Shown here one piece after another: positions 622-61,940 of a stretch of 64,000 bases of DNA; the first letter of the stretch is position 1, and each line of letters opens with the position of its first letter. Both the position numbers and the translations under genes were made by a program. Location of the stretch: NCBI GenBank assembly GCA_963971535.1, contig OZ020594.1:112310251-112374250 (forward strand), read 5' to 3'. The DNA comes from Notolepis coatsorum. Taxonomy: Eukaryota > Chordata > Actinopteri > Aulopiformes > Paralepididae. Below the pieces are notes generated by a model. That model was not told the DNA's origin. It made no database searches and was given only the letters and a program-made list of their open reading frames with translations.

Positions 622-748
622 CTTATGAGTTCCATTTCATAGGAAAATACTTTGACTATAATGGTCAGAAGTAAATTAACTTAGATGCTGTTATGCTTAA
701 CACAGTAAGTACACTTTACTTAATTTCTAAGATTAGATTAGATCATTT

Positions 749-2600
749 ACATTTACATTTAGTCATTTAGCTGATGCTTTTATCCAAAGCGACTTACAAG
801 TTCTGTGCGACAAGACAGCAAGAAGGGTATAACTCTATCAGCTGAGTAACAATGTTCATCAAAGTGTTGCGTGTTACAGTGTAGGTTAGTTTATTAGGAC
901 AAGTGCATGACAGTAAGGTTAGTCTGGGTTAGATTTTTTTTTTTTTTTTTTTATCATTTCAGATCATTGTTGAAGAAGTGAGTCTTTAGTCGACGGCGAA
1001 AGATTGGACGGGATTCGGCTGTCCTAACTGGGATGGGTAGTTCATTCCACCATTGTGGGGCAAGGACTGAGAATAGGCGGCTTCTCTTTGATGACCCTCC
1101 GGGAGCTTGGATAGGAGTAGATCTGAGGCGGCCAGAAGATGTAGAGCGTAGGGGTCTTGAGGGTGTGTAGTTAGAGACCATTGACCGGAGGTAGGCGGGA
1201 GCGGTTCCCTTTGCCGCACGGTATGCTAGGTCGAGGGCCTTGAAGCGGATACGTGCAGCAATGGGGAGCCAGTGCAGGTCCCTAAGAAGTGGGGTGACAT
1301 GGACCGACTTCGGTAGGTTTGAGATCAGGCGGGCCGCTGCGTTTTGAATGAGTTGAAGAGGCTTGGTGGCAGTGGCCGGGAGGCCAGCTAGCAGTGCGTT
1401 GCAGTAGTCGAGGCGGGAGATGACTGTTGATTGGACGAGGAGTTGGGTGGCTTCTTTTGTCAGGAATGGGCGTATCCTTCTGACGTTGCTCAGGAGGAAT
1501 CTGCAGGTTCTGGTTGTCGCTGCGATGTGAGCAGAGAAGTTCAACTGGTCGTCGAGGACAACACCAAGGTTCTTGGCGGTCGGGGATGCGGTCACAGCTG
1601 CATTCTCGACTGTGATGGAGAGGTCGGTCAGGGGGGAGGATTTGGCCGGCAGGTGGAGCAATTCTGTTTTGCTTAGGTTCAGTTTGAGGTGGTTGGTCGT
1701 CATCCAGGCGGAGATGTCGGACAGACAGGCCGAGATCCGCTCAGAGACGTGGATATCTGATGGAGGGAAGGAGAGAAAGAGTTGAGTATCATCGGCATAA
1801 CAATGATATGAGAAGCCATGAGACGTGATAATGTTACCCAGTGATTTAGTGTAGAGGGAGAAGAGAAGGGGTCCTAGGACCGAGCCCTGGGGGACACCCG
1901 TCCGGAGGGGGCGGGTGGCCGACAGAGTCCCTCTCCATGACACTTGGTAGGAGCGGTCATTGAGGTATGATGTCAGCCATGTCAGCGCAGATCCAGCCAC
2001 TCCCATTCCTGCGAGGGCCGCGAGGAGGATCTGATGGTTGACTGTGTCGAAGGCTGCAGATAGATCTAGGAAAATCAGGACAGAGGAGAGGCCTTTCGCT
2101 TTTGCTAAGTGAAGTGCCTCTGTGACCGCAATGAGGGCCGTTTCTGTGGAGTGGCCAGTCCGGAAGCCAGACTGATTGGGGTCTAGGAGGTCATTCTGTA
2201 AGAGATAAGCAGTAAGTTGGTTGGATACAGCACGTTCAAGTGTTTTAGAAAGGAAGGAGAGAAGAGAGACAGGACGATAGTTGGCTATGACGGTGGGGTT
2301 CAGGGTTGGTTTTTTTATGAGGGGCGTGACTCTGGCTTGTTTTAGGGAGGTGGGGACCACCCCCGAGTTGAGTGAGGAGTTGATGGTTGCAGTTAGGAAT
2401 GGGAGGATGTCCGGTGCTATGGTCTGGAGGAGTGGGGAGGGTAGCTGGTCCAGCTGGCATGTAGTCGGACGGTTCGACGTTACCAGTGTCAGGGTCTCGG
2501 CTTCTGTAATGGGAGAGAAAGATGACAGAGTGAAGGATGAGGTTCTCGATTCAGCGTTTGGAATGGGTGGGGGTTGGGAGAAGGAGCTGCGGATGTTCTG
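749..2600 (-). mobile_element. LINE-A copy 1 (L2/CR1-type), 5'-truncated
   Basis: The 3' UTR at 749-953 contains the fish LINE tail motif TTTATCCAAAGCGACTTACA. The reverse-transcriptase (RT) region follows on the minus strand, and homology to copy 2 (18667-21210) stops at 2600. The empty site in the right arm reads GATCATTTAGTCC (reverse complement of about 61802-61815); here the insertion splits it with only ATTT repeated (745-748 and 2601-2604). The 5' truncation and short direct repeat fit target-primed reverse transcription. Confidence 0.9.
954..2600 (-). CDS. LINE-A reverse transcriptase, partial
   Basis: This encodes the RT of an L2/CR1-type LINE, which copies element RNA into the genome. 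The frame is open from the truncation point near 2600 to the stop at 954; the first in-frame ATG/GTG-type codon gives 468 residues starting at 2360, but the true N-terminus is lost. Visible motifs are YRPVSLLSFLSK, the LDLSAAFDTV motif A, GVPQGSVLGPLLF, the catalytic YADD, and the C-terminal WWNELPIPVR block typical of these LINEs. There is no endonuclease part. Compared with copy 2 the protein is closely similar with scattered substitutions, so the copies are young relatives. As a 5'-truncated copy it should not be autonomous. Confidence 0.9.
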   Translation of the reverse strand, partial: QNIRSSFSQPPPIPNAESRTSSFTLSSFSPITEAETLTLVTSNRPTTCQLDQLPSPLLQTIAPDILPFLTATINSSLNSGVVPTSLKQARVTPLIKKPTLNPTVIANYRPVSLLSFLSKTLERAVSNQLTAYLLQNDLLDPNQSGFRTGHSTETALIAVTEALHLAKAKGLSSVLIFLDLSAAFDTVNHQILLAALAGMGVAGSALTWLTSYLNDRSYQVSWRGTLSATRPLRTGVPQGSVLGPLLFSLYTKSLGNIITSHGFSYHCYADDTQLFLSFPPSDIHVSERISACLSDISAWMTTNHLKLNLSKTELLHLPAKSSPLTDLSITVENAAVTASPTAKNLGVVLDDQLNFSAHIAATTRTCRFLLSNVRRIRPFLTKEATQLLVQSTVISRLDYCNALLAGLPATATKPLQLIQNAAARLISNLPKSVHVTPLLRDLHWLPIAARIRFKALDLAYRAAKGTAPAYLRSMVSNYTPSRPLRSTSSGRLRSTPIQAPGGSSKRSRLFSVLAPQWWNELPIPVRTAESRPIFRRRLKTHFFNNDLK

Positions 2601-2692
2601 ATTTAGTCCGGAGTCCAGACTTTGAGAATGCCTGTGTTAGACCTACAGTATAATAGTATACTAGTATAGTAATAGTATAATATACAGTATAT

Positions 2693-4850
2693 ATAATGTA
2701 CAATAGAGAGCATCCTGACTGGCAACATCACCTCCTGGTTTGGGAATAGCACTGCACAAGACCGAAGCAGACTACAAAGAGTGACACGTTCAGCCGAACG
2801 CACAATTGGAGGGGGGCTCCCCACCCCAGGGCTGTACGCTAAGCTTTTTCACTAGGGGCACACTTGCCCCTAAATGAGAAATTTAGGGGCAAAGAATATT
2901 TTTTAGGGGCACATTTTTAAATAACTATTTTACCATTATAGTAGGGCTGGGCGATATGGCCTCTAAATGATATCGCGATATTTTTTTGCCATATCACGAT
3001 ACACGATATATATCGCAATATTTTGACATTTCCTCTAAAGCACTTAAAAATGCTTGATTTAACCCTTTGATGCATATAGTCACGCCAATATGATGATTAT
3101 AATAAGTCCCTGCAACATATGTTTGCATTATTAAACCATGAAGATGCTTTAAAAAATAATTTAATGAAAATGTACTAAGAGTAGTCTACTGACACACTAA
3201 TAAAAAATGTATTTACATCTAAGACCATTTATATAAAAACTTTTGGGTGCCTTTTTTTTGCACAGTACTGTGTTTTCTATCCACTTTAGCCAAACACACA
3301 CACACACACATAGCAGACTTAATGATTTTAGAATATTTCAGATAATGAAATTAAATGTTTATATCATCAACTATCCAGTTAGTATTTATACTGTCTGTAA
3401 CGTTTGGCTACTTTAAATCATTGAATGTAGAGAGAGCTGTACTGTATTGTACCCATTCTGCAATCTGTTAATAAAGTTTTCAATCAATCAGAGCGAGAGA
3501 GAGCGAGAGCGAGAGCGAGAGCGAGAGAGAGAGAGAGGGGGGGGGGGGGCGAGAACGAATGAGAGAGCCAGCCCCCCCCCCCGGGTTTTGTTCTAGGTTC
3601 GCGTTTGATCGTCTAAGCTGCCCTAGGTGATGACGTCACACTCGAATGTAAACAGGAAGCGTTTAACAGACGGAGATGGAAAGTGGATGATATACAGTAA
3701 CAGAAACGAATAACCAATAAATATGAAGTTATGTTTAAACTTCTGTTGTCAAGCGTTGTTAATATAACCCACCCCCTTTCCTCCCGAATGGAACTAGTGT
3801 TGTGGAGTCCGCTTTGACTGGTGTCCAGGGTTAGCAGCAGCTAACGCTAGTTAGCTTAGCATAATCCTAATGGTACCGTGGATAGCAGCTAACGTTAGCC
3901 CATTGCTCGTGTCAATCAAATTGCATGTTATTAAAGGTCCGCGCTGGTCTGTCTAATGAAATTACAACCGCAACATTATGCCCTGGTTGTAGGCTAATGT
4001 TTTATCTAATTTGTATGGATTAATTTAGGAGTGAAATGCGAATGAAGGGTTGCAATCACTACTCGCAAGCTTGCCCCCAGATGATATTTTCCACTCGCAC
4101 CGGCCAGATTAGGGGGCAATTTGCGACGAGATGCTCGCAGTGTACAGCCCTGCACCCTCCAGAACATTTACAACAAGCGGTGCAGGGGCAAGGCTAAGAG
4201 AATCATTAAAGACTCCAGTCACCCGAACAACTGCCTCTTTGAACTGCTGCGGTCAGGCAAGCGATACCGGAGTCTCAAGGCGAGCACAGAAAGACTCAGA
4301 AGAAGCTTCTATCCCCAGGCCATCAGGCTGCTCAACGAACAATGAACACTACACAACAACAACCATCAAACGCACATAGCACACACATCCACACGCACAC
4401 ACTCACTTTAAACAAACACACTGTAGCACCCACTCCCCACACTTTATAGCACACACTCACTTTAAACAAACACACTGTAGCACCCACTCCCCACACTTTA
4501 TATTTATTGATGAAGGATTGCACTACAACTCGTACACCTTACTGTAAATTGTACCTAAATTGTACCTCATCCCATTTCTGCTTTGCACTATATAGTATTG
4601 TACATTAGTACACTGCATAGTATTGTATATTATATGGTAACTCAGTTACGTCTATTCTGCATCGAACATTGTACATATGTCTATACTGAACACTGGGACC
4701 TCATTTTCTACTTCTAATTTACATGCTATACTATGTTATTTGATACTATCTTGTCTAGCACAGTCTCTGGAGCGTAACAGTAAGAAGCATTTTGTATAAA
4801 AGTATTCTGTACTTCTGTATGACAACTATTAAAGAAACTTGAAACTAATA
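2693..4850 (+). mobile_element. LINE-C copy 1, 5'-truncated
   Basis: Sequence from about 2693 matches the C-terminal part of the LINE-C RT and its 3' UTR (compare the minus-strand copy at 37936-41431). It reads to the stop after RLLNEQ at 4345, then a UTR with a 62-bp duplicated segment (about 4385-4500) and the tail AAAGAAACTTGAAAC. A DNA transposon (2827-4152) splits the coding part. The right arm lacks the whole insertion: TATAATACTGC at about 61763-61773 (reverse) is the filled site here. An AT-rich patch at 2655-2692 lies between the target and the LINE. Confidence 0.85.
2827..4152 (+). mobile_element. non-autonomous DNA transposon with 5-bp TSD (hAT5-like), copy 1
   Basis: Terminal inverted repeats CAGGGCTGTACGCT and its partner AGTGTACAGCCCTG bound 1326 bp. 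CACCC flanks both ends (2822-2826 and 4153-4157), and the uninterrupted LINE-C copy near 38640 shows the same site with a single CACCC. A second copy (34119-35479, opposite orientation) has AATAG on both sides. Inside are a stretch like the hAT end GGGCTGGGCGATATGG (about 2945), a LINE-B-like tail at 3452-3490, a GA-rich microsatellite and G/C runs. No transposase coding was seen. CAGGG ends suggest hAT, but the TSD is 5 bp rather than 8. Confidence 0.85.
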
Positions 4851-4855
4851 CTGCC

Positions 4856-4964
4856 AGCTGCTATAACAAAACCAAAAACTATCGGTATCTGCAGTGTATC
4901 GGCCGATATGGCTCATAGGCGATCAGTGACTGGTGGCCAAAAACGTGATCGGGGCATCCCTAAC
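4856..4964. mobile_element. hAT-like terminal fragment
   Basis: Contains ATCGGCCGATATGG and ends GATCGGGGCATCCCTAA, a pattern found at ends of fish hAT elements. The left part is shared with the right arm (about 61690-61755), the right end is not. Only a remnant. Confidence 0.45.
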
Positions 4965-4965
4965 G

Positions 4966-5409
4966 CCTACTATTTATATGAATGATATTGTCTCCGATAT
5001 TGTCAGGATCATCTCTATGCGGATGACACTATCGTCTATTGTGTTGTTGGCTCTGTACAACTACCCATTAAAAATTTACAACTCTCATTTAATACTTTGC
5101 AGGATACGCTTGTTAATCTTAAACTGGTACTCAAACCAAACAAAGTTCATGCTCTTCTCGAACATCTGTGAACATTTGCATATACTGCATCTACTGTGAA
5201 TGAGTCTATTATTGAGAGTTAAAGAATATAAATACCTTGGCATCTGGCTTGATCAGACATCTAAATGTAAATACCATGTAGATAATCTTGCAAGTAATCT
5301 GCGACAGAAGGTCGGCTTTTTGTACAGAAACAAATCCTATTTTCCTATGCTTAGCAGAAGGAGGGTTGTTGAAGCTATTTCTGTTTTGGATTATGGACAC
5401 AGTTTATAG
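4966..5409 (+). pseudogene. LINE-D reverse-transcriptase fragment (part 1)
   Basis: In mixed frames this stretch reads like the end of a non-LTR reverse transcriptase: LYADDTIVYC (the YADD box, about 5010-5040), LKLVLKPNK, then EYKYLGIWLDQTSK (5224-5265), RQKVGFLYRNKSYF and AISVLDYG. At least one frameshift and one stop separate the YADD part from the YLGIWLD part, so it is dead. The same element continues at 5803-5829 and 14884-15190, having been split by a hAT MITE and by a BEL/Pao element. The clade (CR1/Jockey group or another) is not certain. This block is absent from the right arm. Confidence 0.7.
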
Positions 5410-5794
5410 TAGGGCTGACCCCTATTAGTCGATTAGTCAACTAATCGGTCGAAAGGAGCCGTAGTCGACCTCTTAGTAAAAAAAAATTAAAATTTTGTAT
5501 TTATATATATATTTTTTTATCATTCTTTCCAAAAGAAAACAGGCACAGAGGCGCTGGAAGAGGATTTCACCCATCTAATGAACACACTAGACTAGACAAA
5601 TATCAAGATGTATCCATCAGTGGACCAATTGCATGCTTTTGCAGAGGACAAGAAGCCTTCAGTCGACTCCTTCAGACATTAAGTACCCCCCACAGCCCAA
5701 ATGGAATGATAAAAAATAAAAAAATAAATCGACTAATGGCAAATTTTTGCCTATCATAGTCGACTATCCAAATCCTTAATCGGGGACAGCCCTA
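5410..5794. mobile_element. hAT MITE, 385 bp
   Basis: Ends TAGGGCTGACCCCTATTAG and, inverted, TAGGGCTGTCCCCGATTAAG; flanked by an exact 8-bp TSD GTTTATAG at 5402-5409 and 5795-5802. It contains paired TTAGTCGA/TCGACTAA motifs. The 8-bp TSD and end sequence fit hAT. It interrupts the LINE-D fragment. Confidence 0.9.
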
Positions 5795-5802
5795 GTTTAT
5801 AG

Positions 5803-5829
5803 ACATGCTGCTGCTTCTACTATAAAGCC
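5803..5829 (+). pseudogene. LINE-D fragment (part 2)
   Basis: Reads YRHAAASTIKP in continuation of AISVLDYG of part 1, showing that the hAT MITE landed within the coding sequence. It ends at the BEL/Pao 5' LTR. Confidence 0.7.
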
Positions 5830-7202
5830 TGTTACGAAGGATCAGATTAAACCGAATATATATATTTATTTATTGATATATATTGAATAGTATTTGTATA
5901 TCGTTTGATATCCCTTGTATATTCCTTGTACATATACACGGAATATCCCTTTAGCCTACTATAGCCCATAATAGTTCATTCTCCTATTGGACAAAGGACC
6001 AGGCGCCAGGGGACCAGCCCCCGGAGTCAAGTTCAAAGGTACCGACAAGACATGTCTGTACTAGCCCCGACCCTGCCCAGGGATACGGCGACAGAAATGA
6101 GAGTGGCACTATTTGTTCACAGTGCATATAAATATGGCGCAAGTGAATACAGGAGCACTTAGTCTTAGTCTTATTTAGACAAAAGTCAAGTTGTTACCCC
6201 CCAAGTAGAAGCCTCACCCACGATACCACGTGCGGTGAAGTATGGCCTGTTTGGCCCCAGAATAGCATTGAGACCGCGTGCGAATTAATAACTGAATTGT
6301 CAGAGTTTGGCACTGTACCGTCGAGTGCGACGTATTTCTATTAAGTTAATAATAGTCTATTGTGTATGGTGCATCGTGCGGTTAGAGTTCTAAAGTGACC
6401 AGCATCTCCAACGCTTCCTCGTGTTATCTAGAGTCTTATCCAGGCTGGGCCGACCACATGGCGCTTTCATCCGAGGAGATCTAGGCGAGGACCGAATGGA
6501 CATGTACACTGGATTACCTACCCGACGACTGCATAGCCTTTTGCGGCTGGAATATATATTTGCTTTGGTACTGTGATTTGTGGAGCGGATAATCGCCGAC
6601 GCCTGTGAGTGTTGGATTTACCCCCGAGAGGAGTCAAGGTCGAGTCGGCGCTCAGAGAGCCTGAGGCCGACCTAGCTTTCTTCACTGTAGAGCTACAGCC
6701 TGCAAGAGAACCAAGCTGTATTCGTCTGCGGATCAAGAGTCTATCGCACTGTCTTCTGTACTTGAAGTCTCCCTAGGCCTCGTTGACCAGACGTTCTACT
6801 ACCGACAGCTCTCCTACCCCCCCTGCCGGCTTACAACCGGGAGGACCCCTCCAGTATATCCCGCTATATCACTAAGTGTACCATAGATATAATTCCCTAA
6901 GAGCCAGGTTGTATAATTGCCTCCTGCGTAACCAGAGAATGGACATTCAGTGTTGATTTGCCTACGCATACTCATTTGCCTTACAAGTGCATTCAAAGAA
7001 TAATGTAAAGTATCATATGTACCTTTTGCTCCATTAAATATTTGATTATTACCTTTGACTGGAACCGATTTCATTGTGGGAAGTGTTCATCATATTCATA
7101 TATCGTGTACTGTATGGCCAGTAGTTAAAGTACATAAAGCGGTAGTGGTTTAATGATACCATACTTATCAATACAGTCAGGGAATTGTACCCCTCAGTTA
7201 CA
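5830..7202 (+). repeat. BEL-1 5' LTR
   Basis: TG...CA ended repeat of 1373 bp, paired with 13512-14883. A TATAAATATGGC segment near 6127 could act as a core promoter element and ATTAAA near 7033 as a poly(A) signal; both are motif-based guesses. Confidence 0.95.
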
Positions 7203-7222
7203 ATTGGTCCTTCGAGCCGGAG
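7203..7222 (+). promoter_or_regulatory. BEL-1 putative primer-binding site
   Basis: TTGGTCCTTCGAGCCGGAGG begins 1-2 bases after the LTR, as expected for a tRNA primer-binding site. The same sequence follows the LTR of the second BEL/Pao element on the minus strand (about 57505-57524), which supports the call. I did not identify the tRNA. Confidence 0.75.
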
Positions 7223-7249
7223 GGTAACTAGTGTAATATTAATATAGTG

Positions 7250-9470
7250 GTATTAATATTGAAATGGCCTATGATGAACACTCCACAAAACGGTCCTCCT
7301 AAAGTAGATCGCCCGCGGCGTAGACGGCAGCCACCTCAGTACTTAGAGGATTACGCTGCCAGTATACTACCTAGCCTTCTACAGACGGTAAACGCGGTAA
7401 AAGTAGAAAGTAAAATTATGTCCGACCCTATCAACCAGACTCCCCCGCCAACAGAGGCCCTAGTGGGTTCTAATGTAACTGACCAAGCTCACGGTGGGGA
7501 CCAGGAGGGAACTGACACGACTTTACCCCCCGCCAAGACCGAAGAAGTAGTCCCCGGAGAGCTCCGGGAGGAAGATAACCCTCCAGAGATGGAACTCTGC
7601 ACGGTACAAGAAGAGGAGAGCGCCCCGGAGATAGAGCTCCAGGACTCCCCGCAGGAGAACGCATCTCCAACGAGTACTGCCAGGAGCGGATCACCTCAAC
7701 CAGCGTCTTCCCCCAGCGAGGCGGACAAGATGCTGGCACAGGCGTTCCTCGCCAGCCTAGCAGCCTCCACAGAGCGCGATAGGCTCCAAGCACAGACGCT
7801 TAGTGAGCGCGAACATTCTTCCATGGAAAGAGAACGCATTCAAGCGCAGCAACGGAGCGACGAAGATCGTATACGTCTGGAGATTAGACGCCTTCAGACG
7901 GAAGAGAATATGGCAAGAGACCGGGCCGACACCCAGCGTGCCGCTGCCGGTGCCCAAAGAGAAGCAGAGCGCGACAGAATACAAGCGCAGCTAATGGAGC
8001 AGCTGATCGCCAAGGCAACACCCCCTCCCTCCGCAAGGGGTTCCAGGGCCTCGTCAAGACACGGGTCAAGGGCACCCTCCCCTAACCGATCAAGCGACCC
8101 TGAACTCGACCACCAGAGAGAGCCTATACCTCCCTCCGAACCCCTTCCCCGACCGGTCCCAGTGAGACCCAGCTACAAGGAAGGAACGGTGTACACCGCG
8201 GAGAGGCTAAATAGACGACTACAGGATCTAGATGACCTGACAGAAGAAGAAGAGGGAGAGGAGGAGAGTCAAGCCCGACAGCAGCACAGTACTCCACAGG
8301 ACCAGGAGGTCCAGTACAGCCCAGGCTCTACCCCCGCGGCGCTGCGCTACAGACCCCCGACTCTATTCACGGGTGAGCATGACGCACGACCAGTCCCGAG
8401 GAATAGCACCTGGATACGCGGGCCATGGTACCCTGCCAGTACCAGCCCACCGAGAGGCGTAAGAGGAGACTCGCCTAGGAGGCCTCTCTTCCAACGCTCA
8501 CCGATGTGCCAGCCATCCACGGCATCATACATTGGCACACCGACGTTTCCAGACTTCACCCATGAGAACCGAGCACAGTACACGGAGTTACGGATGTGCT
8601 TAGAGACAATGATGGTTGACGTAGCTGATGAACGCCACAAGTATGCTATCCTATTGAAGCACCTGAAGGTGCCCCGAGCGCACAACATAGCGCTGGCCTA
8701 TGCCACCTCTACTACCCCATACACAGCGGCTCTAGCAGCGCTCGACCAAAGATATGGACGCATATGGGATTACGTAATACAAGAGATAAGGCATATTGAC
8801 CGCCTACCCCCAGCAACAGACAATCGCTCACTAGACGACCTGTCTATTAAGGTACAATCCCTGGTAGGGATGCTGGGGGCGCAACGAGAAAAGGGTATGC
8901 ACGAACTATACGCCAACTCTAACGTCGAGAGGATTTTAGAGAAGCTGCCGCCCGCCCGACAAGAGCGCTTCAGGCGGCAAAGAGACCACCGTGATCCTAG
9001 CGGTCCCGAGCCATCCCTCCTAGACCTAGCCGACTTCCTGGCGAGAGAAGTCAGCAGCCTACGATTGGATACGTTCGTGCGGAGCACACCAAGCTCCAGA
9101 GAGGGACCTAGGAGAGCAAACGATGGCCGAAGATTGGTGACTGTCATGCACCAATCAGAATCAGTACCGAGCAGCAAGAACCACAGTACCCCCTCGATGA
9201 AAGAGAAGTGGAAGATGGTGTGCCCGTACTGCGAAAAGGAACACTGGTTGTCACAATGTGACCTGTTCAAGAAGATGACCGCTGAAGAAGTGAGTCACTG
9301 GATAAAGTCCAACAGACGCTGTTACCGATGTGCGCGCAGTCACATGGCAGCCGAGTGCCGCTTAAAGAAGAGGTGTAGTCGGTGTGACGGAGCCCACCTA
9401 GATGTCCTACACGACAGTAACAGAAGAAAGCCTGCACCATCCAGCAGCACAAAGGCAAGTGTTATGTACA
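7250..9470 (+). pseudogene. BEL-1 gag region
   Basis: Rounded bounds. The encoded region is rich in Pro, Glu and Ser at first, then has a long charged segment likely to be coiled coil (many Arg/Glu/Gln, about 7730-8010), a gag-like helical region around 8540-9000 resembling the DUF1759-type domain of BEL/Pao gag, and a cysteine/histidine-rich segment (CPYCEKEHWLSQC, CYRCARSHMAAEC, CSRCDGAHLD; about 9220-9420) of the nucleic-acid-binding type. Gag would form the element's particle. The region is part of a fossil element. Confidence 0.85.
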
Positions 9471-12400
9471 TTGACCCCGCTAGCAGCGGGGGCGCCCAGG
9501 TGCTCTTAAAGGTGGTTCGCGTAACACTGAGTTACCAAGATAAGGTCATGGACACTTACGCCGTCCTTGACGACGGGTCAGAGAAGACCCTTCTCCTCGC
9601 GTCCGCTGCGGCCCAGCTGGGGCTGCGGGGGAGCGAAAACCAGATGACGATTCGGACAATAAGAAGAGATCTAAAGACGATAAAGGGCGAGAATGTCTCC
9701 TTCACTATCGCAGCAAGCGGGCAGCCAGAGAGACGGTATAGGATTACTAATGCTTTCACCAGCCAAGAAATAGGCCTATCGCAGTACACATACCCCATCG
9801 CCAAGCTGATGGATAAATATGTGCACCTGCGTCAACTACCTATCCCGCTCATAGACGGTGCCACCCCGACCCTGCTGATAGGCTCCGACCATGCAGACCT
9901 CATAGTCCCGATAGACCGGGTCCACACAGGACCCAGAGGCTGTCCTGCAGCAGTCGAGACCCGCCTAGGATGGACATTACAAGGCCCCCTCGCTAAGTCT
10001 CTTAACCGAACAGCAGCCACCAACTGCCTCCACTCCAGAGTGACAGAAGAAGACACCACTCTCCTGCAGCATGTCGAGAGGCTATGGACACTAGAGACAA
10101 TGCCCTTTAAGAACGAAAAGAAAGACATTCGTTCTAAGGAAGACATTTACGCTATAGCCCTCCTCGAGCAAGGGACAAAGAGAGTCAAAGTCAACGGAGT
10201 GATGAGATACGCAACTCCACTCCTGAGGCGGGAGGGAATGCCCACCTTTCACGCCACAAAAGAAGCGACGGAGCGGTATCTATTGAACACAGAGCGGCGC
10301 CTAGCCAAAGACCCCGCTCAAGAGACTGTGTACCGCGCTGAGATTAACAAGCTAATCACAGCGGGACACATAAAGAAAATTGACATTAAAGAGGCCGATC
10401 AGACGACCGAATCATGGTACGTGCCGCACCACAAGGTCCACCACAACGGCAAGGATCGTATTGTGTTCAACTGCAGCTACCAGATCGGATCACAAAATCT
10501 GAATAAAGAGCTCTTGCCCGGCCCAACACTCGGCCCCTCTCTACTAGGCGTGTTACTACGCTTCCGCCAGGACCAGGTGGCCATCAGCGGCGACATCAAA
10601 GGGATGTTCCTGCAGGTGAGACTAGTGGAGGAGGACAAGCCCCTGCTGCGGTTCCTATGGAGAGAGAGGATCGGGGATGAGCAACCAGCCATCTATCAAT
10701 GGGAAGTCCTCCCTTTCGGAACCACATGCAGCCCATGCTGTGCTACGTTTGCACTGCAGAAACACGTCGCAGAGGACCCAGCAGCAGATGAAGAGGTCCG
10801 ACAAAGTGTAGGAAATAGTTTCTACGTGGACAACTGTTTGCAAAGCGTCTCGACGCCAGAAGAAGCAGAGGCTCTTCTACTCAAGCTCCGTGCCTCCCTG
10901 ATCAAAGGCGGCTTTGATCTCAGGCAGTGGGCCAGCAGCGACCCGCAAGTATTGCGCAGCCTCTCCCCCGAGGACAAGGCAGCGAGCAGCGAGACCTGGA
11001 TGGCGACCATCCCAGGAGAAGCCCAAGAAATGACACTAGGACTAGTCTGGCGCTTCAAAACAGACTCGCTCCATTATAGACAAACCCCTGACCAAGGAGC
11101 AGGGAAGGTCGACGGCACTACCGACCACCAGACGGAGTGTATACAGAACACTCGCCAGACAATATGACCCGTTGGGATGTATTCTACCTTACACCACCAG
11201 GGCAAAGATGATTGTAAGAGCGCTATGGGACAAGGACCAGGGCTGGGACGACCCCATACCCGAACACCTTGCATCCACATGGAGAGAGTGGGAGACGGAA
11301 CTCCGCTCACTCCCAGGTGTTAACATACGCCGCAGCTACTTCCCACCCACAGTGAGGCCAGAGACATGCAAGATGGACCTGCACGTCTTCAGCGACGCCT
11401 CCGAAGTAGCCTACGGTGCGGTGGCCTACTTGCGTGCCCGAGAGGAGGGAGGAGAAATACATACTGCTTTCATCCTGGCTCGCTCAAGAATAGCCCCATG
11501 GAAGCAACAATCTATCCCGCGTCTAGAGCTCTGCGCAGCCCTAGCAGGAGCGCAGCTCGCCACGTTAATCCAACGTGAACTCACCATTCCGGTGCAAAGA
11601 ACAATCTTGTGGTCAGACTCCACGACAGTACTCACATGGATCCGGTCTGATTCGTGCAGATACAAGGTCTTCGTGGGAGTCAGAGTCACAGAGATTCAAG
11701 AGTTAACAGAAGTAGCAAGCTGGAGGTATGTGGACACAAAACACAACCCAGCTGACGTCATCACCCGGGGAATGTCCCTGGATGACCTCACCCGTCACAA
11801 CCTATACAGTGACGGACCAGAGTTTCTCAAGCTCCCGGAAGAAGAGTGGCCTACACCCACCCCACGGGAGGCGAGTAAAGAGGAGGCCGAAAACAAGAAA
11901 TCTATGTTCTGTGGATTGAACACACTCGTCTCCACAGACCCCGACATAGACGATTGCCTCACCATAGAGAGTGCGCAACTAAAGACATTTCTGTGGCACC
12001 ACCCAGAGGTTCAGCCCACTACTGACATTTCAGCAGCTGACTACGAAGAAGCAGAACTTCTTCTACTACAACGAGCCCAGAGAGACTCGTTCCCCGATGA
12101 GCTAGACTGTCTACAGGGAGCAAAGCCGGTCCCATCAGACAGCAGACTGCTCCACCTAGCACCCGAGAGCGACGCCCATAGTCTCATCAGAGTGGGTGGT
12201 CGTCTGCGGAGAGCCCCAGACTTACCGGATGACGTCAAGTACCCGATAGTCTTGAACAGCCGACACAAGGTCACAGAGCTGATCATAAAGAAATACGACG
12301 AGGATGTGCACCACGCAGGGGCAGAGAGAGTCTTCGCGGAGATCAGACGTCGTTATTGGATACTGCAAGGGAGAGAAGCAGTGCGGCGCTTCCAGTGAAC

Positions 12401-13420: not shown

Positions 13421-13499
13421 TGACTGACCCTCACAGCGGACATTGAGTAGTGGACAGTGCGGTTAATCTGTCTCTGCTTAGCTAATTAGGTGGGACTAA

Positions 13500-13511
13500 T
13501 TAGGGGGCGGC
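13500..13511 (+). promoter_or_regulatory. BEL-1 polypurine-like tract
   Basis: Short G-rich stretch (TAGGGGGCGGC) directly before the 3' LTR, in the place where plus-strand priming occurs in LTR elements. Interrupted by C, so only a candidate. Confidence 0.4.
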
Positions 13512-14883: not shown

Positions 14884-15190
14884 AAGCCACTTAAGGAATT
14901 TGCACTGAATTGGGAAAATCTGCTTTTAGCTTCTGTGCCCCCGACACATGGAATCTTTTGCAAAGCACTTAAACTCAACACTTGTTTGCGGACCCATCGT
15001 ATATTCTATAATATAGCTATGGAGACAATAGTATGTCTAATTTGACAGGCACTATTTATACTCCAACAGGGCCAAAACTGTTTATTTCTACATACCTTCG
15101 TTTGTGCGCTATACCACGCAAAAAATCGCCTTGTTGCACAATAATCCAGGCTGGTTTTCTAGATTGTGAGATAGAGTGTTTTGTGCGCAT
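14884..15190 (+). pseudogene. LINE-D fragment (part 3) and tail
   Basis: After the second AAGCC the coding trace of LINE-D resumes (LKEFALNWENLLLASVPP, then THGIFCKALKLNTCL) and decays downstream. The end near 15190 meets the start of sequence shared with the right arm, so the whole LINE-D insertion plus nested elements (about 4966-15190) is absent there, where a different 140-bp stretch (about 61546-61690) occurs. Confidence 0.6.
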
Positions 15191-16101: not shown

Positions 16102-16179
16102 TCTATGTTTATTATCTAGCTAATATCTGATGGTGAAACGCTGTGTGTGGGGTACCTGTAATTCAGACACCAGGTACCC

Positions 16180-46394: not shown

Positions 46395-46409
46395 TGGTGT
46401 CAGAAGCAG

Positions 46410-51466: not shown

Positions 51467-51602
51467 GTTCCTACCTAAATGCTGCTAGTTTAATGGCGGA
51501 ACTAATGGTTGAAGCCCACAGTGTTCGGGGATGTTTTATGCCGACACACGCGTGTCAATTTAAGAGATAGTTTCACTTCTTCTTGTAAAGAGATAGTTTC
51601 AC
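51467..51602 (-). repeat. inner inverted-duplication pair, right member
   Basis: Reverse complement of 37452-37626 (TAGTTTAATGGCGGAACTAA, GATGTTTTATGCCGACACAC), followed directly by the satellite. Homology stops at AAACTAGCAGCATT (minus strand). Confidence 0.85.
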
Positions 51603-54600
51603 TTCTTCTTGTAAAGAGATAGTTTCACTTCTTCTTGTAAAGAGATAGTTTCACTTATTCTTGTAAAGAGATGGTTTCACTTCTTCTTGTAAAGAGATAG
51701 TTTAATTTCTTCTTGTAAAGAGATAGTTTCAGTCACATTCTTCTTGTAAAGAGATAGTTTCAGTCACAGTCTTCTTGTAAAGAGATAGTTTCAGTCACAG
51801 TCTTCTTGTAAAGAGATAGCTTCAGTCACAGTCTTCTTGTAAAGAGATAGTTTCAGTCACAGTCTTCTTGTAAAGAGATAGTTTCAGTCACAGTCTTCTT
51901 GTAAAGAGATAGTTTCAGTCACAGTCTTCTTGTAAAGAGATAGTTTCAGTCACAGTCTTCTTGTAAAGAGATAGTTTCAGTCACAGTCTTCTTGTAAAGA
52001 GATAGCTTCAGTCACAGTCTTCTTGTAAAGAGATAGTTTCAGTCACAGTATTCTTGTAAAGAGATAGTTTCAGTCACAGTCTTCTTGTAAAGAGATAGCT
52101 TCAGTCACAGTCTTCTTGTAAAGAGATAGCTTCAGTCACAGTCTTCTTGTAAAGAGATAGTTTCAGTCACAGTCTTCTTGTAAAGAGATAGCTTCAGTCA
52201 CAGTCTTCTTGTAAAGAGATAGTTTCAGTCACAGTCTTCTTGTAAAGAGATAGTTTCAGTCACAGTCTTCTTGTAAAGAGATAGCTTCAGTCACAGTCTT
52301 CTTGTAAAGAGATAGCTTCAGTCACAGTCTTCTTGTAAAGAGATAGTTTCAGTCACAGTCTTCTTGTAAAGAGATAGTTTCAGTCACAGTCTTCTTGTAC
52401 AGAGATAGTTTCAGTCACAGTCTTCTTGTAAAGAGATAGTTTCAGTCACAGTCTTCTTGTAAAGAGATAGTTTCAGTCACAGTCTTCTTGTAAAGAGATA
52501 GCTTCAGTCACAGTCTTCTTGTAAAGAGATAGTTTCAGTCACAGTCTTCTTGTAAAGAGATAGTTTCACAGTCTTCTTGTAAAGAGATAGTTTCACAGTC
52601 TTCTTGTAAAGAGATAGTTTCAGTCACAGTCTTCTTGTAAAGAGATAGTTTCAGTCACAGTCTTCTTGTAAAGAGATAGCTTCAGTCACAGTCTTCTTGT
52701 AAAGAGATAGTTTCAGTCACATTCTTCTTGTAAAGAGATAGTTTCAGTCACAGTCTTCTTGTAAAGAGATAGTTTCACAGTCTTCTTGTAAAGAGATAGC
52801 TTCAGTCACAGTCTTCTTGTAAAGAGATAGTTTCAGTCACAGTCTTCTTGTAAAGAGATAGTTTCACAGTCTTCTTGTAAAGAGATAGTTTCACAGTCTT
52901 CTTGTAAAGAGATAGTTTAATTTCTTCTTGTAAAGAGATAGCTTCACTTCTTCTTGTAAAGAGATAGTTTCACAGTCTTCTTGTAAAGAGATAGTTTCAG
53001 TCACAGTCTTCTTGTAAAGAGATAGTTTCAGTCACAGTCTTCTTGTAAAGAGATAGTTTCAGTCACAGTCTTCTTGTAAAGAGATAGTTTCAGTCACATT
53101 CTTCTTGTAAAGAGATAGTTTCAGTCACATTCTTCTTGTAAAGAGATAGCTTCAGTCACAGTCTTCTTGTAAAGAGATAGTTTCAGTCACAGTCTTCTTG
53201 TAAAGAGATAGCTTCAGTCACAGTCTTCTTGTAAAGAGATAGTTTCAGTCACAGTCTTCTTGTAAAGAGATAGCTTCAGTCACAGTCTTCTTGTAAAGAG
53301 ATAGTTTCAGTCACAGTCTTCTTGTAAAGAGATAGCTTCAGTCACAGTCTTCTTGTAAAAAGATAGTTTCACAGTCTTCTTGTAAAGAGATAGTTTCACA
53401 GTCTTCTTGTAAAGAGGTAGTTTCAGTCACAGTCTTCTTGTAAAGAGGTAGTTTCAGTCACAGTCTTCTTGTAAAGAGATAGCTTCAGTCACAGTCTTCT
53501 TGTAAAGAGGTAGTTTCAGTAACAGTCTTCTTGTAAAGAGATAGCTTCAGTCACAGTCTTCTTGTAAAGAGATAGTTTCAGTCACAGTCTTCTTGTAAAG
53601 AGATAGCTTCAGTCACAGTCTTCTTGTAAAGAGATAGTTTCAGTCACAGTCTTCTTGTAAAGAGATAGTTTCAGTCACAGTCTTCTTGTAAAGAGATAGT
53701 TTCAGTCACATTCTTCTTGTAAAGAGATAGTTTCAGTCACATTCTTCTTGTAAAGAGATAGCTTCAGTCACAGTCTTCTTGTAAAGAGATAGTTTCAGTC
53801 ACAGTCTTCTTGTAAAGAGATAGCTTCAGTCACAGTCTTCTTGTAAAGAGATAGTTTCAGTCACAGTCTTCTTGTAAAGAGATAGCTTCAGTCACAGTCT
53901 TCTTGTAAAGAGATAGTTTCAGTCACAGTCTTCTTGTAAAGAGATAGCTTCAGTCACAGTCTTCTTGTAAAGAGATAGTTTCACAGTCTTCTTGTAAAGA
54001 GATAGTTTCACAGTCTTCTTGTAAAGAGGTAGTTTCAGTCACAGTCTTCTTGTAAAGAGGTAGTTTCAGTCACAGTCTTCTTGTAAAGAGATAGCTTCAG
54101 TCACAGTCTTCTTGTAAAGTTGTAGTTTCAGTCACAGTCTTCTTGTAAAGAGATAGCTTCAGTCACAGTCTTCTTGTAAAGAGATAGTTTCAGTCACAGT
54201 CTTCTTGTAAAGAGATAGTTTCAGTCACAGTCTTCTTGTAAAGAGGTAGTTTCAGTCACAGTCTTCTTGTAAAGAGATAGTTTCAGTCACAGTCTTCTTG
54301 TAAAGAGATAGTTTCAGTCACAGTCTTCTTGTAAAGAGATAGTTTCAGTCACAGTCTTCTTGTAAAGAGATAGTTTCAGTCACAGTCTTCTTGTAAAGAG
54401 ATAGTTTCAGTCACAGTCTTCTTGTAAAGAGATAGCTTCAGTCACATTCTTCTTGTAAAGAGATAGCTTCAGTCACAGTCTTCTTGTAAAGAGATAGCTT
54501 CAGTCACAGTCTTCTTGTAAAGAGATAGTTTCAGTCACAGTCTTCTTGTAAAGAGATAGCTTCAGTCACAGTCTTCTTGTAAAGAGATAGTTTCAGTCAC

Positions 54601-55110
54601 AGTCTTCTTGTAAAGAGATAGTTTCAGTCACAGTCTTCTTGTAAAGAGATAGCTTCAGTCACAGTCTTCTTGTAAATAGATAGCTTCAGTCACAGTCTTC
54701 TTGTAAAGAGATAGCTTCAGTCACAGTCTTCTTGTAAAGAGATAGTTTCAGTCACAGTCTTCTTGTAAAGAGATAGCTTCAGTCACAGTCTTCTTGTAAA
54801 GAGATAGTTTCAGTCACAGTCTTCTTGTAAAGAGATAGCTTCAGTCACATTATTCTTGTAAAGAGATAGTTTCAGTCACAGTCTTCTTGTAAAGTGATAG
54901 CTTCAGTCACAGTCTTCTTGTAAAGAGATAGTTTCAGTCACAGTCTTCTTGTAAAGAGATAGTTTCACAGTCTTCTTGTAAAGAGATAGTTTCAGTCACA
55001 GTCTTCTTGTAAAGAGATAGTTTCAGTCACAGTCTTCTTGTAAAGAGATAGTTTCAGTCACAGTCTTCTTGTAAAGAGATAGTTTCAGTCACAGTCTTCT
55101 TGTAAAGAGA
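51560..55110. repeat. 31-bp satellite array, more than 100 units
   Basis: The main unit is TCTTCTTGTAAAGAGATAGT plus TTCAGTCACAG (31 bp). The left edge has 26-bp units (TTCACTTCTTCTTG type); 27-bp units lacking GTCA-type bases are scattered. Variants (AGCTTC versus AGTTTC, CATTCTT, GAGGTAG) recur in order over a period of about 612 bp (compare 53095-53706 with 53707-54318). The units are contiguous without spacers, so this is not a CRISPR array. Confidence 0.97.
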
Positions 55111-57484
55111 TAGCTTTGGTATCTCCTGCTTTGAGATCAGGAGCGTTCAGTATTGCGGCAATCTCGCTTTGTGCAAGCTGATGTGGCTGTCCATATTGCC
55201 GCTGCAAGGCCTGCATGGCGGCGGTGTAGGGTTGCGCGTAATGCCTGCAGGACTGGGCTATTAGCTTAGCCTCATCCAGAACCAGCTGCTCCATAAGTAC
55301 ACGGTACTTGTAGTGCTCAGAAAGTTCAGTGTGGGCATCGAGTAGGTCAGTGAATTCTTTCTCGCTGTCATGGACCAGTTTAGGCAGTTTAGGTACAGGG
55401 ACCGGCTGCCGTGGAGGCTGGAGAGCGTATGAATCCTGTAGTGATGTATACCGAGGCTGACGGACATACTGGACCGGTGGAACTGGTACAGAATAATAGG
55501 GTGCTGGACCAGGTGTTGGATGCACCAGCTGATAGGCTGGCTGAGTCGATGCAGCAGGCTGAGGCTGATACACTGGTTGTGGATGGTGGCTCAGTTGGTG
55601 CGGCAGTGGTTGATACATTTGCTGAGCAGGGATGGCTTGTGGAGGCTGATATGCTGGTTGTTGATGGCTCTGCTGGTACGGCAGTGCTTGATGCAATCGC
55701 TGAGCAGTGTTGATTGGTGGAGGCAGATATGATGATTGTTGATGGTGGCTCAGCTGGTGCGGCAGCGCTTGATACGCTTGCTGAGCAGGGAATACTGGTG
55801 GAGGCTGATATGCCCTCGCTGCTGCGACAGCGGTTGTGAATGGTGAAGGCGGCGCTGTCCAGGAGGGTAGTTGATAGGTAGACTGCTGAGGTGCACCTGC
55901 TGTATGTTGGCCCACTGGCTGGAGAGCAGCTGCAGTGGGTAACCATCGTGCAGGGTAGAGTGCTGTTGCAGTCTGAGGTTGATAATTAGGCTGTGCAGGC
56001 GTAGCTGTAGTAGGGCTGGGCGATAAAACGATAACGATAACTATCGCGATAAATTATTTCCTCGAAATAAACATGAAACGTGGTCGCAAAGTTTCGATAT
56101 ATCGATTTCCAAGCTTGGCTCCGTTCAGCCTCGGCTCACCACACTCACTAACAACAACCAACGTTACGTGATGACGTGACGTGCATACGCACAACAGCTA
56201 ACAACCAATCAGTGAAGGAGATGGCCGAGAGCGAACGAGATCCGGAAGGAGACCCAGAGGTACTAGGACTCACTCAACCAACAAGGCTTGCTAGGCTAAT
56301 TAGCTTGCACGGCATTGTTTTATATATTTACGTGCCGAGTATGTGTGTGTTTTGAATTCTGAGGCCACGTTTAAGTAGTGTGGGGTATACAGTGGACGTA
56401 GTTTCAATATATTGTGGCGGAAGAGAGTATTTTAGTGTGATATTTAGCACATTGTCGTGGAATACACGCTTAGAAGCAACAGGCTGGCTAGGATACCTAG
56501 CTTGCACGGCACTGTTTTATATATTTACGTGCCGAGTATGTGTGTGTTTTGAATTCTGAGGCCACGTTTATAGTAGTGTGGGGTATACAGTGGACGTCGT
56601 TTCAATATATTGTGGCGGAAGAGAGTATTTTAGTGTCATATTTATTGTCATGAGATACTCCGCTTGTCGGCTAACTGTTAACGTGCGCGGACTGATGACG
56701 ACATCAACTCGACTTGAGACATTCGCAGCAGCATATTAGAAGTTGGCATTTGCTGGCCCACGTGACCCACTGCTTGCATCACCTGGAAGTCAGACTGTGG
56801 CATGACCAGACTCATCGTGGTGGGGGCTGGGGGCCTCGGAGCTGCCCCGAACTGGTTACTGGTTACTGTCGGCGGTAGAGACTGAGTCGACATGTAGGCT
56901 TGCTGCCTTTGGCCCGGTGTACAGGTTGTGGCTTGAGACTGTAACGTTGCAGTTGTTGGGCACAGCAGCGGTATTAGTGGCAGCGAGCTCGACCATGGTG
57001 AGCGGTTGGGTGGGACGCTCAGACTATGATGTGACAATGGTGGTGGAAGGCGTAGGGGCATGGTAGAGCAAGGTCCTCTTGCGTCAGAGGTGCCACCTGT
57101 TAGGCTCCGACTGTGGTGGCTCTGCTCTGATGGGGATGGCGATGTGAGCCCCACACACACTTCCCGCTGGTCAGGCCGGGTGTTAGCATACGGTGATAGG
57201 TCCCAGTGTCGCGTCTGATTGACTGCTCCCGGCAATGAGAGGCAGGGAGGGGGCCCGAGCGCAGTGGGGAGCTGGTCACCTGTAGCTGCAAACTCGGTCT
57301 GCAGGCTGAGTGACCGCAGCTGCTGTGCGGTGGCACCTTCGCTGTCATCTGGTAGAGACGGTGCAGTATTAGGCATGAGGGACTGTGGTAAGCTAACCAG
57401 ATAGCCTTGCAGGTGTGCTGGAAGCTGTCGCAGCCTTCCTCCTCGTCTTCCATTTCCATCTGCTGCTGTGCTCTGCGTGTCCAT
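55111..57484 (-). pseudogene. BEL-2 gag region with hAT insertion
   Basis: Rounded. The N-terminal part starts with MDTQSTAADGNGRR just after the primer-binding site, is Ser/Pro/Leu-rich, and is interrupted around 56.0-56.7 kb by a hAT fragment. The second part is rich in Pro/Gln/Tyr repeats (QALPHQLSHHQQ and similar) and leads into a helical stretch, ELSEHYKYRVLMEQLVLDEA with AAMQALQRQYGQPHQLAQSE, like the DUF1759-type domain of BEL/Pao gag (compare HERHKYAILLKHL-type text in BEL-1). The C-terminal part is lost at the satellite. Confidence 0.65.
56013..56680 (+). mobile_element. hAT-type fragment inside BEL-2
   Basis: Starts TAGGGCTGGGCGATAAAACG with CGATAACTATCGCGATAAA, a hAT end; the opposite end was not found. 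At 56221 ATGGCCGAGAGCGAACGAGA starts a short frame ending near a GTACTAGG donor, possibly a first exon. A segment of about 145 bp (56300-56450) is repeated at about 56500-56645. Confidence 0.6.
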
Positions 57485-57635
57485 GGCGCCGTTGTGGGTG
57501 AAGTTCTCCGGCTCGAAGGACCAATATTGAAGATATAATGCTTGTTTGCAAGGTTTGCTGGAGCCACTTCATCCAGAACGGCACACCCCGGTCAGAGAGC
57601 GGACGCAGACACAGAGAACAGTCCTTTCGTATTTT

Positions 57636-58136
57636 TTATTTTTATTTTTTTATTAGTCTTTTTTCCCCCTCCATTTTTCCTCCGATTTTCTCCCATCCCA
57701 ATGTTAGTCGTATGCCAATTCCCAGTCCCTTCCTGGTCGCTGCGCACTTACCCCCCACAGTCAGATCATCTGGGAGAGTGGAGGCTACCACGTGCTTCCT
57801 CCGACACACGTCCAGCCAATCACCGCTTCTTTTCACCTGGCAGCGCGGATTCTCATTGAGAGGGCGTAGCGTGTGGGAGGACCACACTATCCCCCTCACG
57901 TCCAATCCGCGCTTAGCAGGCGCCCCGACCGAACTGTAGGAGTCGCTGTTTACAACGACCCGGACCCACCCCGCCAGCTTCTCCCACCCTCTGATACAGC
58001 CAATTGTATCAGTGCAGACGGCCAGCCAAGCTGGTGACAACCCCGGAGCTGTGAGCTGGATTCGAACAGGCGAATCAAGCTCACAGCTCCGGGGCTGGTG
58101 ACGAACGCAATCTCCGCTCGACCACCTAACCGCCCT
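57636..58136 (-). repeat. SINE-1, copy c, full length
   Basis: Head on the minus strand with TTAGGTGGTCGAGCGG (box A) and TGTTCGAATCC (box B), body of about 430 bp and an A-rich tail. Perfect 13-bp TSD CCTTTCGTATTTT at 57623-57635 and 58137-58149. The head part also has an inverted repeat around GAGCTGTGAGCT (58045-58095). It is inserted in the BEL-2 LTR. Confidence 0.9.
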
Positions 58137-58315
58137 CCTTTCGTATTTTATTAAGGATTCTGTTGTTGAGTGATATCTCAAGAATGCTTCCATCCAGGTC
58201 GTAGGGCTGGATGGAGCAATCAAAGATTGAGTGAGTGGTATTCTGCAACATATAAGCAGAACACACAATAATTAACAGAGGTACATACTTATTAATCATA
58301 ACCTGAACACACAGC

Positions 58316-58515
58316 AAAAGATGCTATCTAGCATATTAGCATTGGCCGCATGGACCAAACATAACAAGTAATCGGCAGAATGCACACAACTGAAAAGATG
58401 CTATCTAGCATATTAGCATTGGCCACATGGACCAAACATAATGCACACAACTGAAAAGATGCTATCTAGCATATTAGCATCGGCCGCATGGACCAAACAT
58501 AACAAGTAAATGGCA
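58316..58515. repeat. tandem repeat in BEL-2 LTR, about 3 units
   Basis: Units of about 63-77 bp with AAAGATGCTATCTAGCATAT and CATGGACCAAACATAA. Confidence 0.9.
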
Positions 58516-58938
58516 GAATGCAATGGCATCCAGAACACACAACTGAAGAGATGCTAAAGCATTATTGGCATTAGCAAAGCTCAATTAGCAGCATGAATTA
58601 ACACAACGTAGCAAACCAAATCATAGTCACACATGCATGTCACAGCATCTCAACACATAAGGCAGGCTACATATGACATGTATCTATCATTACCATAGGC
58701 ACTATATTTGTAGGCTATGGGTGACTTACTTAGTTCATGAACGCACTCTCTCACTGGGAAAGCAGACAGCAATGGAACACATGGGCGGCAAGATGGCCGC
58801 TGTATTTAAACCCATTAGGACCCCTGGGCTGTCCAGAGAGATGCCAGACTATAAATAATAGGACCCCTGGGCCATCAAATAAGTGCCTGACTGGAAATAA
58901 CAATACACAGCATAACAAATAATGGGGAATTTACAACA

Positions 58939-59502
58939 GCTAGATTATCGATAGTATATGTGTACGCACGCACGCTCTTGCGGCGAGCCGAAAATCGAGT
59001 CTCCTATTTCCTGACGGCGCGCACAGTCAAGTAGCGATAACACATAATCACATAAAAGCTTATATCTCTGTGAAAACTAGTCTGATTATCCTAATACTGA
59101 TAACATAGATTCCTTACCTGAGATCAGATGGTATCCAAATGGTTTATTCCAATTCCTGATCGCCATTTGAAAAAATCTATATGTTTATTGATCCACAGAG
59201 TATACTGTAAAACACATATTCCCCGCTGCTCCGAGAGTCCAGCATGAAGCTGGTAGACGCCAGTTGCATGAGTGAGAAGTAAAACGTTGATTCCGTTTTT
59301 TTTTTCTCATTCATTTTCATTGAGTTCAATCCAAAAGGGTGAATTACCATTTGGGAGACGATAGGGGGCGCTTTTTTCACATCTGAGCGCCTGAGGCAGC
59401 TGAATGTCCAACGGTAGACTCGCTTGATGCAATATGATTTCAGATCGCTAATAAAAAAAAATTATAATAAAACGAATATTCTCGGGCGTGGCATGCAAAG
59501 TG
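58939..59502 (-). mobile_element. TTAA element fragment (right arm)
   Basis: Minus-strand start CACTTTGCATGCCACGCC after TTAA (59503-59506). A short plus-like architecture follows on the minus strand: GCGCCCCCTATCG, then ATGGCGATCAGGAATTGG and a donor CTCAGGTAAGG near 59120. The other end is cut by BEL-2. It sits at the same TTAA as the unrelated-looking MITE at 22473 in the left arm. Confidence 0.6.
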
Positions 59503-59506
59503 TTAA

Positions 59507-61940
59507 GTGGTATGAAATACTTGCTAGTAGTATAGTTGATGCGATGCCATTAGCTTAACTCAGAGTACCGTGGTCTGAGTTCTGGCCTGGTTCTGAGTAA
59601 ACCGGGAGGCTTCAGACAGGCAGCAAATGAGGTCATGAGACAAAAAAGTGTTATTCCACACAATAACCTGCAGGCAAAAGTTGTAATCATCCAGAGCAGA
59701 AAACATTTCCTATGCTTCAGAGTGACATGATGTGTTGAACTAGTCTCAGTGTGACATCACTAAATGCTTCAGAGTGACATGATGTGTTGACCTAGTTTCA
59801 GTGTGACGTCACTAAATGCTGGGTCTTGAAGCATAGAAAATGAGGCACGCTGTTTTCTGCTGTGGGTGATTAAAACTTCTGCCAGGTCAGAACTCCGACC
59901 ACGAGACTCTGTGTGTAAACTGAGGGCACTGCATCAACTATACTACTATAGTATTTCATACCACTTGATGTCCAAAACTCTTGAACAATCCCTTTAAGGT
60001 GACACTTTCATCATCAAGTACCAGTGACAAGACATGTCTAACATAAAAAAAACACACTCAGCCAAACCTGTCAATCTACAATTACTCTGGGGAGAGTGAA
60101 CATTGTACTTTGCAAGACTCTTATTGTTACTGTTTTTTTATCTGGTATTTTTTAGGCCACAGCCCCACTGATATCCAGTACAGTGAAGGAGATGGCATCT
60201 TGCAGTCACCTCTCTCTGTTGGTACTAAAGGAACTATCTGTCTGCTTGGTGGACTGCATTAAAACACCAGGACTTAAAGGAACTGTGAATGAAGGAGGAG
60301 GTAAGGCTCTAAAGCAGGGGTCAGCAACCTTTTTGACATGGAGTGCCTGTTTGAAATATAGTTGTAACTAGTGTGCCTCAACAATATTCCATGCATCGTA
60401 ATTTTTTTCTTCTCATAATCAGGTATTTTTAATGATAATTTTTACATTATTACATCATTATTGTTATTGTTATTATTAACAATATTATTATGATGGTTGT
60501 ATCAACCCTAAATCTGAGTTGGGGGGGGAGGGGGAGGGAATGCAATGCAGACAAACAGCTGCATACAGTGCGACCATTTCACTCACATTTGCCCATTCAT
60601 TTTTGGACACATCACTGCACTGTACGTGTGCTGTCATAGCTCCACCTACATGCCTAATGGAGAACACCAGGAGAACACCAGGATGTGAATGGAGGGTGAA
60701 TGTGAGGTATATCGTGTAAATACGTTTTGATTGATCGCAAGACTACACTGTAAAAAAAATTATAATAATAACAAGTTACCATAACTTAAAAATATTGAGT
60801 TCAGTTACTGTGCATTAAGGTTTTCAGTTTTCAATCCATAATAAGTTAACAGAAAAAATAAGTACACAACCACATTATTTCAACCTAATAAAACTATGTT
60901 TATTGTCATTGTTTTAAGAACACAAGTTGACTTGGTAATACTCACATTTTGAGTAAAAGAAAATGGCTTTTAACATGTGCAATGTTCAATGAAATAGAAA
61001 AATAAATAATAAAAATTGTTGATTAATCCCACTGGTCACAATGGTGACCGTAATAATGTTTTTGTTATAAGGCTCTGCAAATGTTACTGAATGATGTAGC
61101 AATGTATTTCCAGCTAAATTGAAATAATAAACAAATAAAGGGTCTCAATTAAATATGTGGTAGTAAAAAGAACCTGTGGGAGGATTTCAACAAGATAAAT
61201 GCGACAGAACAGTGCAAAATATTTCACTATAATATTTCATTTTTATTTTTATTTTTTACTGCTGCCCCCTTTGCCTATGCAAATGTGCCTACGCGTGCCT
61301 AGGGTTGCCTACCCCTGCTCTAAAGGGTAAATCCATCTTCAGTGTTCATACAGATGCTTGAAATAAATCATGCAAAGACGAGGCGATTATTCAAACTATA
61401 TCCCCAATTGTTTTTATGCATGTTTTTCCATGATTCTCATTACCATCATTTTCAAGGTGACATAATACTGTGATGAATCTGAAGAAAATCTCCATATTCC
61501 AATAAATCTAACTTTATTTTAAACCTCACATGAAATGCAAAAAAAAATTATTATATAAGATTTGCATTATATCACCAAAATAAATGGCCCATCAATCATT
61601 TCTAGCCATTTCAATTTCCAGCCATTTCCAATTCCCCATTACTACTAAATGGACCCTTGTTCCATTAAACATAAGGAAAAAATATATGTCCTATGAGCCA
61701 TATTGATTGATACACTGCCGATACCGATCGTTTTTGGTTTTGTTATAGCAGCTTGCAGTATTATACTGTAGGTCTAACACAGGCATTCTCAAAGTCCGGA
61801 CTCCGGACTAAATGATCTAATCTAATCTTAGAAATTAAGTAAAGTGTACTTACTGGGTGTTAAGCATAACAGCATCTACGTTTATTTACTTCTGACCATT
61901 ATAGTCAAAGTATTTTCCTATGAACTGAAACTCATAAGAT
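59507..61940 (-). repeat. right arm of the long inverted duplication (compact copy)
   Basis: Holds, in order, the TTAA MITE copy with two 52-bp units (59507-59993), a junction without the ISL2EU-like element (about 60096), a hAT insertion (60315-61317), and the empty sites for the LINE-C and LINE-A insertions of the left arm. Beyond 61940 the arms no longer match. Confidence 0.8.
60315..61317. mobile_element. hAT MITE, 1003 bp
   Basis: Ends CAGGGGTCAGCAACC and GGTTGCCTACCCCTG; exact 8-bp TSD CTCTAAAG (60307-60314, 61318-61325). The left arm has the empty site CTTTAGAG at about 15433-15440. Confidence 0.93.

Follow-up and report, generated by a model that had tools for sequence, protein, structure and literature searches.

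An inverted duplication with base-exact empty sites for arm-specific insertions

The window, the whole 64-kb stretch of DNA that was analysed, contains a real inverted duplication of a known kind, in which the insertion sites are unusually clean. Its two copies lie about 37 kb apart in opposite orientation: a swollen arm at 622-22472 and a compact arm at 59503-61938, which spans 2,436 bp on the minus strand as the reverse complement of the first. An earlier sequence-only reading had proposed a duplication followed by insertions into one arm or the other, and target-site duplications (TSDs) together with empty sites support this history.

Extent and identity of the arms

Self-BLAST of the window linked 622-22485 with 61938-59490 by inverted and strictly collinear matches, with E values from 7e-22 to 2e-173. 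The matches pair 622-749 with 61938-61809 (segment A, 124 of 128 letters identical), 4846-4919 with 61763-61690 (segment C, 67 of 74), 15201-15430 with 61546-61317 and 15422-15654 with 60314-60081 (segments D and E, together 15201-15654, with 226 of 230 and 226 of 233), and 21578-21945 with 60082-59712 and 22152-22485 with 59820-59490 (segment F, taken as 21578-22472), all coordinates of the swollen arm being on the plus strand. A finer local alignment of the arms gave seven segments of 90.5 to 98.3% identity and added the pair 2601-2655/61813-61759 (segment B, 54 of 55), which is absent from the self-BLAST list of matches of at least 60 bases. Segment F contains a 52-bp minisatellite, whose unit count is 8.1 in the swollen and 2.1 in the compact arm.

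Splicing the flanks across the insertions by script left 1,594 bp of swollen and 1,425 bp of compact arm. The joined arms share 1,276 aligned letters, with 1,239 matches and 37 mismatches (97.1% identity, JC 0.0296), and their alignment scores 2,219, whereas none of 30 mononucleotide shuffles scored above -244. The reappearance of the segments of 622-22472, inverted and in reverse order, within 59507-61940 is thus borne out, with the limits now at 59503-61938. The size given for the duplicated locus, 2.4 kb, has to be revised: the unit common to both arms measures about 1.4 kb, and the compact arm reaches its full span because a 1,003-bp hAT-type element sits inside it.

All segments except C are 96.9 to 98.3% identical. 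Segment C, which we take to be a probable hAT end running on to about 4961, is more divergent, with mismatches at 7 of 69 positions as against 30 of 1,210 elsewhere (Fisher p=0.003). Searching the window with 1-760, 57400-59510, 61900-63120 and 23429-25500 found repeats only and no further arm homology. The window edge lies 621 bp beyond the swollen arm, so this arm may extend past it.

Both arms carry an exon-like stretch (15436-15580 on the minus strand, 60156-60300 on the plus strand; AG/GCCACAGCC...GGAG/GTAAGG) whose ends resemble splice sites and in which, by eye, one frame is open in both copies. It had no match in PDB (two frames), in Pfam or in a large protein set with candidates limited to proteins of similar length, and with these homologue searches empty we do not claim it as a gene.

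Insertions with exact empty sites

Empty sites had been proposed for LINE-A, LINE-C, an ISL2EU-like element and a hAT, and all four proved base-exact, each with a TSD and a single target in the other arm. LINE-A (750-2600, minus strand) is flanked by the TSD ATTTA, has its empty site at 61813-61809 and encodes a reverse transcriptase domain (RVT_1, E 2.8e-39) in the minus-strand ORF 957-2636. A LINE-A paralogue at 18883-21210 gave 7,422 matches; the best 120 of the 7,422, where an organism is named, come from ray-finned fishes except for one cyanobacterial MAG, which is probably contamination, so a fish is the likely source of the window. The LINE-C insertion (2656-4845, plus strand; TSD TAATA) matches a LINE locus within the window (38759-37944) over 2696-2826 and 4153-4843, and is interrupted by another, nested element at about 2827-4153.

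The third insertion into the swollen arm, at 15655-21499, has the ends AGACCT...AGGTCT and the TSD AT, and holds nested LINE-type sequence, of which 18663-20525 matches LINE-A. ISL2EU elements are described as encoding a DDE transposase that has an HTH or THAP domain and, in a second ORF, a YqaJ exonuclease domain (PMC9179366). A Pfam scan of four ORFs of 16124-18133 was empty up to E 1, and a THAP-like stretch was seen by eye only; the element is labelled ISL2EU-like from its ends and TSD rather than assigned as a member. A 78-bp tandem duplication next to it (21494-21649, plus strand) takes in the last 6 bp of its end and is consequently later than its insertion.

The compact arm has one such insertion, a short element of 1,003 bp at 60315-61317 with the ends CAGGGGT... 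and terminal inverted repeats. Its 8-bp TSD, CTTTAGAG, lies at 61318-61325 and 60307-60314, and the empty site in the swollen arm is at 15422-15430. hAT elements make TSDs of 8 bp, and from the TSD length and the end sequence we assume that this element belongs to the hAT superfamily.

An empty site had also been claimed for the LINE-D block with its BEL element (4920-15200), which comprises a LINE fragment (one frame shows a YADD stretch), a BEL/Pao retrotransposon and a small nested element. A clean empty site is not supported here: a stretch of 143 bp in the compact arm (61689-61547) is unmatched in the swollen arm and finds only short matches in the rest of the window, and no TSD was seen around the block. 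The small element (5413-5796) has TAGGGCTG-type ends and, by eye, an apparent flanking 8-bp repeat, GTTTATAG.

The BEL/Pao element (5830-14883, plus strand) is nested in LINE-D and has an LTR pair, the 5-bp TSD AAGCC and the domains RVT_1, Peptidase_A17 and DUF5641; of an integrase only Integrase_H2C2 was found, at 19.9 bits and thus under the curated cutoff of 25.5. Its LTRs differ by 3 substitutions in 1,374 aligned sites and one indel, a divergence about 13 times below that of the arms, and their near-identity suggests that BEL entered LINE-D late and is far younger than the duplication. The relative dating that the sequence-only reading had thought feasible is therefore practicable, with the arm distance (JC 0.0296) set against that of the LTRs. 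Another retroelement of the window, at 46366-49804, has two ORFs, the second of which (47294-49801) contains RT, RNase H and integrase domains.

Inner and outer junctions

At the inner side, the swollen arm contains both ends of a host MITE (21661-23457; bounded by TTAA on either side, with AGGATAGTT and AGGGATAGTT as inner ends). This MITE is broken at an internal TTAA by pB1, a short piggyBac-like element (22469-23428) of under 1 kb with a TTAA target-site duplication and terminal inverted repeats, and a second copy of pB1 lies at 29628-30587 (90.7%). The last 29 bp of the MITE continue beyond pB1 and, with up to 3 mismatches allowed, occur nowhere else in the window. In the compact arm the MITE is cut at a TTAA (59503-59506) that matches the site of pB1; there the homology ends and a different piggyBac-like end, pB2, begins (58700-59506, minus strand; its left limit is arbitrary).

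The end pattern matches the window 8 times when 3 mismatches are allowed (2.28 times on average by chance), and none of these matches was recognised as the far end of pB2; nor did five ORFs of 55,088-58,271 yield a piggyBac transposase, their matches being DUF1759 and a sub-cutoff RING. pB2 resembles the piggyBac-like end at 62567 weakly (score 508 against 462, the maximum of 60 shuffles), and pB1 does so barely above shuffles (468 against 457). Compared as wholes, pB2 and pB1 do not exceed shuffles (572 against 592), nor does the similarity of pB2 to 1-300.

The compact inner junction thus consists either of two elements at one site or of two elements joined through the common end TTAACACTTTG. 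A stronger version, in which recombination or hybrid transposition of the pB1 and pB2 ends through the shared TTAACACTTTG made this junction, and piggyBac ends thereby mediated the duplication, strikes us as unlikely. Such a join would account for homology that stops exactly at the TTAA of pB1, and would spare the assumption that, of the 10 TTAA sites in the shared unit (hAT left out), one was hit twice independently. If true, this reading would provide evidence, in a vertebrate, that inverted duplications can be seeded by ends of this kind.

At the outer side, the swollen arm adjoins at 621/622 a block on the minus strand (299-621) that we presume to be SINE-like; 299-538 matches 57796-58034, and the remainder was judged by eye. 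No TSD was found at this end, as neither CTTATG nor CATAAG occurs in 1-298.

Several other features of the window were noted. The piggyBac-like end at 62567 lies beside a tandem array with a 43-bp unit that runs past the window end (63118-64000), and a short palindromic element at 31008-31091, with TTAACCCTTTCACTGCC at both ends, looks like a miniature piggyBac-type element. A further array (51578-55113) repeats a 31-bp unit, TCTTCTTGTAAAGAGATAGTTTCAGTCACAG, about 117 times with 94% matches, and an inverted pair within 24409-25226 (24409-24745/25226-24891) is 93.8% identical with a spacing of 145 bp.

Order of events and insertion load

Both arms carry the host MITE, which is older than the duplication, as is the hAT-like end of segment C. 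LINE-A, LINE-C and the ISL2EU-like element of the swollen arm and the hAT of the compact arm are younger. Direct insertions number 4 in the swollen arm (LINE-A, LINE-C, LINE-D and the ISL2EU-like element) against 1 in the compact arm (binomial p=0.375), or 5 against 2 when the boundary elements pB1 and pB2 are counted (binomial p=0.45), both counts taking in LINE-D despite its unclean site. The loading of the arms, about 20 kb against 1 kb, had been called strikingly asymmetric; at 4:1 or 5:2 the event counts are not significant, and on these counts we reject asymmetric loading as a phenomenon. The gap in length comes mostly from a few long elements and their nesting.

Origin of the arm pair

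We tentatively read the arm pair as the trace left by a staggered-break inversion of the intervening block of roughly 37 kb. In such inversions, according to PMC3355041, originally single-copy DNA comes to lie inversely duplicated on both sides, one copy being later eroded. Single-strand breaks some distance apart at one breakpoint would have been followed by fill-in of both ends and end joining, leaving one inverted copy on each side of the inverted segment, and each copy is predicted to retain one ancestral neighbour and gain one new one. The swollen arm has the whole host MITE and the compact arm a truncated one, so the swollen arm retains the inner neighbour; the compact arm would then have kept the outer one. 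LINE-A, LINE-C, LINE-D and the ISL2EU-like element would later have entered the swollen arm, and the hAT the compact arm, independently, with the insertion of BEL into LINE-D probably a late stage, as the near-identical LTRs suggest. Inverted collinear copies border both sides of one internal block, and the inner side fits this model. The identities of the segments other than C are as expected of a single event, and the swollen arm meets the SINE-like block at its outer end without a TSD. Against the model stand the lower identity of segment C and the position of the compact inner junction, which lies exactly on a TTAA with a piggyBac-like end and may owe its place to a later insertion, not to a breakpoint.

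The main rival, which we consider less probable, is a plain inverted duplicative insertion, and it looks the same except at the outer junctions. Repair or template switching would have copied the 1.4-kb unit 37 kb away with the spacer left uninverted, the swollen arm being the original and the compact arm the copy. The complete MITE in the swollen arm suits this account, which needs one event and no inversion, but the outer junction of that arm does not look ancestral, since it meets the SINE-like block without a TSD, possibly through later change. It is quite improbable that two members of a dispersed composite repeat landed here independently in opposite orientations: the arm is itself partly repeat (the host MITE and the probable hAT end), but the shared unit crosses several unrelated sequences in fixed order, and segments A, D and E have no third copy among the self-matches listed (at least 60 bases). 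Two exact patterns from D and E had 0 matches in viral_contigs, a very weak test in that the collection is viral and may omit the source genome; another arm pattern matched once there, at a locus with no further similarity to the window at E 1e-3. We regard an assembly artefact, with two haplotypes or a misjoined contig set in opposite orientation, as very improbable, given that the window contains no N and that the arms differ by 2.9% and in insertions with exact TSDs. Divergence of this size together with distinct exact-TSD insertions exceeds what is expected of ordinary alleles.

Comparison with known systems

Products of alternative transposition of maize Ac/Ds elements have their breakpoints at transposon ends. 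As described in PMC3744419, this reversed-ends reaction resembles the present case in yielding duplications, which there arise from a transposition reaction and are tandem and direct, whereas the copies here are inverted. The piggyBac-like ends that meet at a shared TTAA here are from different elements, unlike the maize case, and only one boundary of two lies at such an end.

Further parallels are the duplications at the Drosophila mojavensis inversions 2q (about 1 kb and 4.3 kb) and 2h (7.1 against 2.7 kb; PMC3355041). There, as here, inverted copies of a unit of kilobase size surround one block and one copy was later altered. The differences are that the block here is only about 37 kb and that the copies here changed mainly through insertion and not deletion.

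Each arm serves as a natural empty-site control for the other. In this way four elements, which are two LINEs, an ISL2EU-like and a hAT-type element and so belong to three classes, have base-exact insertion points and are ordered relative to one duplication. Teleost genomes contain nested transposon clusters, and the LINE, BEL/Pao, hAT-type, piggyBac-like and ISL2EU-like elements found within each other here resemble them. Unlike in those clusters, an inverted partner here supplies base-exact empty sites for four direct insertions. The locus is a clean worked example, not a new kind of system.
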